Source: Chitinophagaceae bacterium
Lineage (GTDB): Bacteria; Bacteroidota; Bacteroidia; Chitinophagales; Chitinophagaceae
Length of the DNA stretch: 64,000 nt
NCBI GenBank assembly: GCA_003168265.1
Contig: PMSV01000011.1
Location: 1 to 64,000, forward strand
Direction of reading: 5' to 3'
The position numbers and the translations under genes were made by a program. Under the pieces are notes generated by a model, which was given only the letters and a program-made list of their open reading frames with translations, did not search any database and was not told where the DNA came from. Shown in pieces: positions 53,814-53,981 of this stretch (within the stretch, counting starts at the first letter, position 1; each line of letters starts with the position of its first letter).

Positions 53814-53919
53814 TGCAACCCTTAGTTACATACAAAGTCCAAAAGATGCCACATTCTTGTTGTTGCTGTTGTTGTATGCCTTAAGGCATAATTTAATTAT
53901 TCCCCTTCAAAGGGTTGCA
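53814..53919 (+). promoter_or_regulatory. Candidate cysteine-responsive mRNA leader
   Basis: Perfect 10-nt arms TGCAACCCTT (53814-53823) and AAGGGTTGCA (53910-53919) enclose the poly-Cys ORF and palindrome TATGCCTTAAGGCATA (53875-53890). Confidence 0.6.
53846..53884 (+). CDS. Putative poly-cysteine leader peptide MPHSCCCCCCMP
   Basis: ATG CCA CAT TCT TGT TGT TGC TGT TGT TGT ATG CCT TAA; 97 nt upstream of the OAH sulfhydrylase ATG. Confidence 0.75.
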   Translation: MPHSCCCCCCMP

Positions 53920-53981
53920 CCATTCTTCCGGATGAGCAGTTCATTAAAATAATCAAATTCATCATCTAAAAAAATCTAATC

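Follow-up and report, generated by a model that had tools for sequence, protein, structure and literature searches.

A class-wide family of cysteine-rich leader ORFs ahead of metY in Bacteroidia and its probable role in cysteine sensing

The trp and his attenuators of enterobacteria combine a short ORF with tandem codons for the amino acid of the downstream pathway. The leader described here, upstream of metY in a Chitinophagaceae bacterium, shares both traits, and in several other families of Bacteroidia the likeness extends to a U-tract terminator and a competing antiterminator near the stop codon of the upstream ORF (uORF). The 64,000-nucleotide stretch of DNA analysed here (the window) departs from this layout, having neither a U-tract terminator nor a demonstrable antiterminator at this place; the stop codon of the leader ORF lies instead in the loop of a hairpin. 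It also differs in its lack of a Shine-Dalgarno context, which is a trait of the phylum (PMC6847099).

Cysteine leaders have been described in actinobacteria (PMC1262725; PMC4633059), and the original prediction for this DNA mentions mycobacterial poly-Cys uORFs; poly-Cys leaderless short ORFs of mycobacteria are also attributed to Canestrari et al. (2020), as cited in PMC13236596. The mycobacterial ORFs resemble the present one in their C-terminal Cys run, in their shortness, probably in their position at or near the 5′ end of the transcript, and in their association with sulfur or cysteine genes (PMC4633059; PMC1262725), and no conserved terminator hairpin was found with them either. They belong to another phylum and precede other genes (cys operons, cysA2), and a counterpart of the hairpin found here (hairpin A) goes unmentioned in both PMC4633059 and PMC1262725. 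The simplest reading of these two groups of poly-Cys leaders is convergence.

A leader ORF with tandem Cys codons, read as ribosome-mediated attenuation, is likewise part of the uORFC-8-2 motif ahead of cysS in Rhodobacterales (PMC8632094), which differs in having two Cys codons and a terminator, in its target and in its occurrence in Alphaproteobacteria. The metY gene itself is controlled elsewhere by the SAM-I riboswitch (RF00162), which, unlike a leader peptide, is a ligand-binding RNA and senses SAM. Within the same phylum, leader-peptide attenuation has been proposed before amino-acid biosynthesis operons of Flavobacterium psychrophilum (PMC9723704), in a report whose main text mentions neither cysteine leaders nor metY. 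The only other statements found for Bacteroidota were general ones on short ORFs in long 5′ UTRs (PMC7366714). The original prediction knew of no equivalent in Bacteroidota, and none was found in the literature covered; the cysteine leader of Bacteroidota metY genes is apparently unreported, a novelty that is provisional because supplements and most subscription journals lay outside the search.

The leader ORF and its surroundings

The metY gene is the first of a metY-metX-hom series, all on the same strand (Table 1), and 97 nt separate its start from the stop codon of a small ORF with the C-terminal end SCCCCCCMP*. Direct reading of positions 53846-53884 gives ATG CCA CAT TCT TGT TGT TGC TGT TGT TGT ATG CCT TAA, exactly as predicted. 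One in-frame ATG further upstream, at 53813, would lengthen the ORF to MQPLVTYKVQKMPHSCCCCCCMP, or 23 codons. We regard 53813, rather than the originally proposed 53846, as probably the true start codon, because relatives start at such a distance and because a Bacteroidota −7 box ends 12 nt ahead of it. Such a box stands directly ahead of the uORF ATG in 37 of 44 leaders, against 10% of shuffles, with a gap that is 7 nt in some relatives and has a median of 17 nt; the start of transcription is predicted from this box.

Table 1. Features of the leader region and the genes that follow it (positions in the window).
Feature	Position	Strand	Remarks
Promoter region AGTCTACTAAATTTGTCCGATA	53786..53807	+	−7 box TAAATTTG (53793-53800) within dyad CTAC-N7-GTAG, imperfect here (GTCC)
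Leader-peptide ORF MQPLVTYKVQKMPHSCCCCCCMP*	53813..53884	+	probable start 53813; alternative in-frame start 53846
Left 10-nt arm TGCAACCCTT	53814..53823	+	overlaps probable start codon; not conserved
Run of six Cys codons (TGT TGT TGC TGT TGT TGT)	53858..53875	+	read directly; Cys enriched here in relatives
Hairpin A, TATGCC-TTAA-GGCATA	53875..53890	+	overlaps last Cys codon; stop codon in loop
C block with a weak local stem-loop, CCCT-TCAA-AGGG, at the hairpin B position, where relatives show an enriched second G+C stem	53902..53914	+	
Right 10-nt arm AAGGGTTGCA	53910..53919	+	not conserved
metY, O-acetylhomoserine/O-acetylserine sulfhydrylase	53982..55304	+	TIGR01326, 686 bits, cut-off 495
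metX-like homoserine O-acetyltransferase	55350..56420	+	gene next after metY
Homoserine dehydrogenase (hom)	56386..57663	+	gene next after metX-like

Upstream of the Cys leader lies a cystathionine-lyase/synthase-type gene, itself behind a SAM riboswitch with a canonical U-tract terminator (52254-52491), 1.4 kb ahead of the Cys leader. Two different sulfur sensors, the riboswitch and the putative one in the Cys leader, are therefore adjacent. The terminator of the riboswitch reads AACTCTTCTGG-CTT-CCAGAAGAGTT-T7 (52460-52491). The dyad over the −7 box is perfect before the SAM riboswitch (CTAC-TAAATTT-GTAG, 52163-52177) and near-perfect at the Cys-leader promoter (53789-53803). Across the Cys-leader promoters of 35 relatives its flanking C is conserved in 94% and its flanking G in 86%, which suggests a transcription-factor site common to the two kinds of promoter. 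The pattern CTAYTANNTTTGTNG has one match in the genome, at 52163, where about one is expected by chance.

The leader region (53700-54060) matched no Rfam 15 model at E ≤ 1. The 4.3-Mb genome has five Cys codons in tandem at three further places, all of which were judged from their ORF context to lie in or overlap longer ORFs and none to be a leader-type small ORF. No poly-Cys ORF with three tandem Cys codons was found near the cysteine-synthase-family (PALP) genes of this genome; a loose-pattern search for Cys runs proved unspecific.

Conservation across the class

Conservation of the Cys run in relatives, on whose absence the original prediction would have foundered, was evident at several taxonomic depths. 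Regions upstream of metY were surveyed across the order, class and phylum, yielding 131 non-redundant sequences, 16 of which had been chosen by pattern. An ATG-to-stop small ORF with at least four Cys codons in a run of eight was present in 68 of the 131, compared with a single reverse-strand case and 0.14% of dinucleotide-shuffled sequences. When the 16 pattern-found sequences are left out, 67 of the 115 unselected upstream regions from class Bacteroidia hold at least three Cys codons in eight (2.2% in shuffles). By the same criterion about 40% of the metY upstream regions of the class, some of them in this genus, have no Cys ORF. Cys-rich small ORFs often precede metY in genomes of the same genus, with unrelated N-termini.

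Two further searches were gene-blind. A pattern combining the hairpin with three Cys codons matched 20 times among 85,488 species, always in Bacteroidota, and 19 of the matches sit 83-122 nt before metY. The second search used a 49-position covariance model made from the leader sequences alone, which returned 52 matches in 299 Chitinophagaceae genomes. Of the 51 examined, 46 precede metY, among them every one of the 41 with E < 0.007 (G135, counted in the 46, is the same leader as L069 of the upstream survey). The model was partly trained on pattern matches, and both searches are biased towards leaders that have the GGCAT arm; since they contain this arm they cannot alone prove its conservation, and the independent result is the placement before metY.

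At least three Cys residues are encoded in 44 of the 45 modelled leaders, with 165 TGT and 58 TGC codons in all. Among the nine residues before MP 43% are cysteine, compared with 2% in the N-terminal part, which varies freely among relatives. The spacing of the Cys residues follows 27 patterns in the 45 leaders, from GSCCC to CCCCCC, although about 10 rows were not cleanly parsed. Because both Cys codons are used and the spacing is free, the conserved property appears to be codon content rather than a folded peptide. Taken across genomes, these leaders point to a real, class-wide cysteine leader-peptide system, whose function we infer by comparison.

Outside class Bacteroidia, all 13 metY loci examined carry a SAM-I or SAM-I/IV riboswitch and have no ATG-started Cys leader. 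Within Bacteroidia, a SAM-I riboswitch and a Cys leader ORF stand in tandem before the same metY at six loci (L073, L085, L125, L134, L141, L159). In two other genomes poly-Cys leaders also occur before other genes, namely a peroxiredoxin/cysM-type/JAMM-type (desampylase-like)/MoeZ cluster (L124, 484-4781) and a cysM-type/MoeZ cluster (L154, 1868-2905). A second type of leader, ending in RRCCCII*, QRCCCIL* or RRCCSLS* and devoid of the MPxG hairpin, was seen at L056-L061 in the same genus.

Hairpins, terminators and antiterminators

In Chitinophagaceae a near-invariant hairpin, TATGCC-N4-GGCATA (hairpin A), lies at the end of the Cys run, and its loop often holds the stop codon. The ORF ends in MP*, with the stop at the loop, in 30 of 45 leaders; others read on, for example to MPQGIL*. 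As hairpin A is near-invariant, covariation is hardly informative (one compensated base pair among 27 sequences). In the 65 nt that follow hairpin A, 33/58 leaders have another G+C stem, against 12.5 ± 3.1 in shuffles. A consistent alternation of 2:3 and 3:4 stems after hairpin A was considered and set aside, being only weakly above chance (4/58, with 0.85 expected).

The 130-nt leader folds at −30 kcal/mol (z = −2.6). The complementary 10-nt arms of the original prediction are present exactly as described, and the left one overlaps the uORF start codon if, as is probable, this lies at 53813. As a conserved switch they were rejected, comparable G+C-rich pairing being found in one of 45 leaders, that of the window itself. 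The sole similar case among the 45 is a 12-nt, A+T-richer pairing with the uORF start codon region at the same place in L255 (1816-1864).

No U-tract terminator was found between the uORF and metY in the window, where a pattern scan flagged hairpin A with the T/A that follows it and nothing else. Hairpin A is unlikely to be an intrinsic terminator because it overlaps the ORF and its stem amounts to only about −5 kcal/mol. In Chitinophagaceae at large a U-tract terminator is likewise usually missing after hairpin A; in three other leaders of the family (L097, L098, L104) a short G+C stem precedes T-rich sequence.

Other families of Bacteroidia differ in this respect, with strong U-tract terminators between the uORF stop and metY in many of their leaders (L071, L078, L080-L083, L090, L138, L144, L152, L164, L076, L114, L135). 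The original prediction had reasoned from the missing T-tract that translational control or Rho was more likely than classical attenuation. Its observation stands for this leader; its conclusion can hold at most for Chitinophagaceae, because other Bacteroidia have canonical intrinsic terminators at metY.

Equilibrium folding with the ribosome masked favoured the terminator in both states at most loci and separated the states in few (L081, L077 and, in part, L090 and L149). The antiterminator arm was therefore tested directly, by comparing the pairing of the segment after the first Cys codon with the terminator 5′ arm against its own shuffles. The loci, 18 in all, were the 14 with U-tracts and four from Chitinophagaceae, hand-picked for terminators or terminator-like stems. 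Pairing was significant (p < 0.05) at 9 of the 14 U-tract loci, and Fisher's combination over the 18 gave p = 8.5e-8, a somewhat optimistic value because the loci were hand-picked and several had been inspected for pairing beforehand. Each of the four Chitinophagaceae leaders had p > 0.5. The pairing segments lie between −30 and +17 relative to the uORF stop, so that a ribosome at the stop codon would sit over much of the antiterminator arm and a Cys-stalled one mostly would not, as in the layout of the trp and his attenuators.

In one further family, f59 (L146, L150, L155, L157, L167), a long conserved stem, CACGT...ACGTG, comes after the Cys leader, and most of these loci have a second stem, GGATAG..TATCC, with no U-tract.

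Probable cysteine sensing and its readout

The proposal that a Cys-codon leader controls a sulfur-assimilation gene has gained support from the conservation of the leader, from its placement before metY and, in two genomes, before cysM-type genes and from the terminator and antiterminator pairs of other families. We consider it highly probable that the segment is a cis-acting cysteine sensor, through which metY-metX-hom would be expressed more when cysteine is short. Comparison of genomes establishes the Cys-rich ORF, its placement at metY, the hairpin and, in other families, the terminator with its antiterminator; translation of the uORF, stalling of the ribosome and the direction of the response are what we infer from these. 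Transcription would begin just ahead of 53813, by a few bases, with immediate translation of the short ORF. With Cys-tRNA scarce, the ribosome would stall on the Cys codons; with Cys-tRNA plentiful, it would reach the stop codon in the loop of hairpin A and keep the hairpin open. The two ribosome positions would impose different states on the leader RNA, raising metY-metX-hom expression when cysteine is short.

The leader in the window departs from the classical readout of such an attenuator, since no U-tract terminator follows its uORF, though the SAM riboswitch of the same genome has one. For Chitinophagaceae we lean towards a stop of transcription as the last step, be it weakly intrinsic or Rho-assisted. 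The Rho-dependent form of this is a tentative proposal, in our view less likely than not, in which ribosomes that finish the ORF bare a C-rich, G-poor stretch to Rho and a Cys-stalled ribosome alters the RNA in such a way that Rho fails to act. Rho has been proposed for terminator-less actinobacterial Cys leaders (PMC1262725), and the sequence after hairpin A runs from a short C-rich, G-poor stretch to a G block and then to T-rich sequence, with 40% C and 8% G at +10 to +20 (30 leaders). The C-rich stretch is nevertheless short and followed by the G block, and it is not evident that it would be covered by a stalled ribosome.

It is conceivable, though less likely than not, that hairpin A alone forms the output in Chitinophagaceae, held open by a terminating ribosome and allowed to close by a Cys-stalled one, and in this way decides metY expression. 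If this were true, leader-peptide control would have a new layout, in which a single hairpin acts with no classical terminator and antiterminator pair.

Purely translational control, in which a Cys-stalled ribosome rearranges the RNA and eases metY initiation with no stop of transcription, much as for mycobacterial poly-Cys ORFs, seems to us unlikely. It would suit the absence of a U-tract terminator between the uORF and metY in the window; the Cys leaders of mycobacteria are cited as attenuators of translation (PMC13236596), and mRNA structure tunes initiation in Bacteroidota (PMC6847099). Against it, other families place transcription terminators at metY, and no sequestered metY start was seen: the last 45 nt before the gene are mostly unpaired in the states folded for the window and A/T-rich in relatives, which argues somewhat against such sequestration.

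Two further explanations concern the sensor itself. The nascent poly-Cys peptide might directly sense metal, sulfide or redox state in place of charged tRNA-Cys. Peptides rich in Cys are able to bind metals or to react with sulfide, and MetY uses sulfide. A redox signal has also been suggested for mycobacterial Cys uORFs (PMC4633059), but the number and spacing of the Cys residues vary widely among the leaders, with no fixed spacing of the metal-binding type, and the N-termini are unrelated, making direct sensing by the peptide very improbable. Least credible of all is an untranslated RNA or DNA element that merely reads as Cys codons: Chitinophagaceae leaders do have a nearly invariant 3′ end, TGTTGTATGCC, but those of other families have Cys codons in common and no evident shared nucleotide motif, TGT and TGC are both used, start and stop codons frame the run, and a −7 box precedes the ATG.

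A leader acting through charged tRNA-Cys would extend cysteine-specific leader-peptide control to the class Bacteroidia, with many examples testable in cultured species. Across the phylum, metY is found with a SAM riboswitch in other classes, with a Cys leader in Bacteroidia and with both in some genomes, and these differing sensors make it a good case for the replacement of one RNA sensor by another. The Cys leader may also be of use as a cysteine biosensor. Finally, the Chitinophagaceae leaders, which mostly do without U-tract terminators, raise the matter of how bacteria whose translation starts independently of Shine-Dalgarno sequences read out the position of a ribosome.
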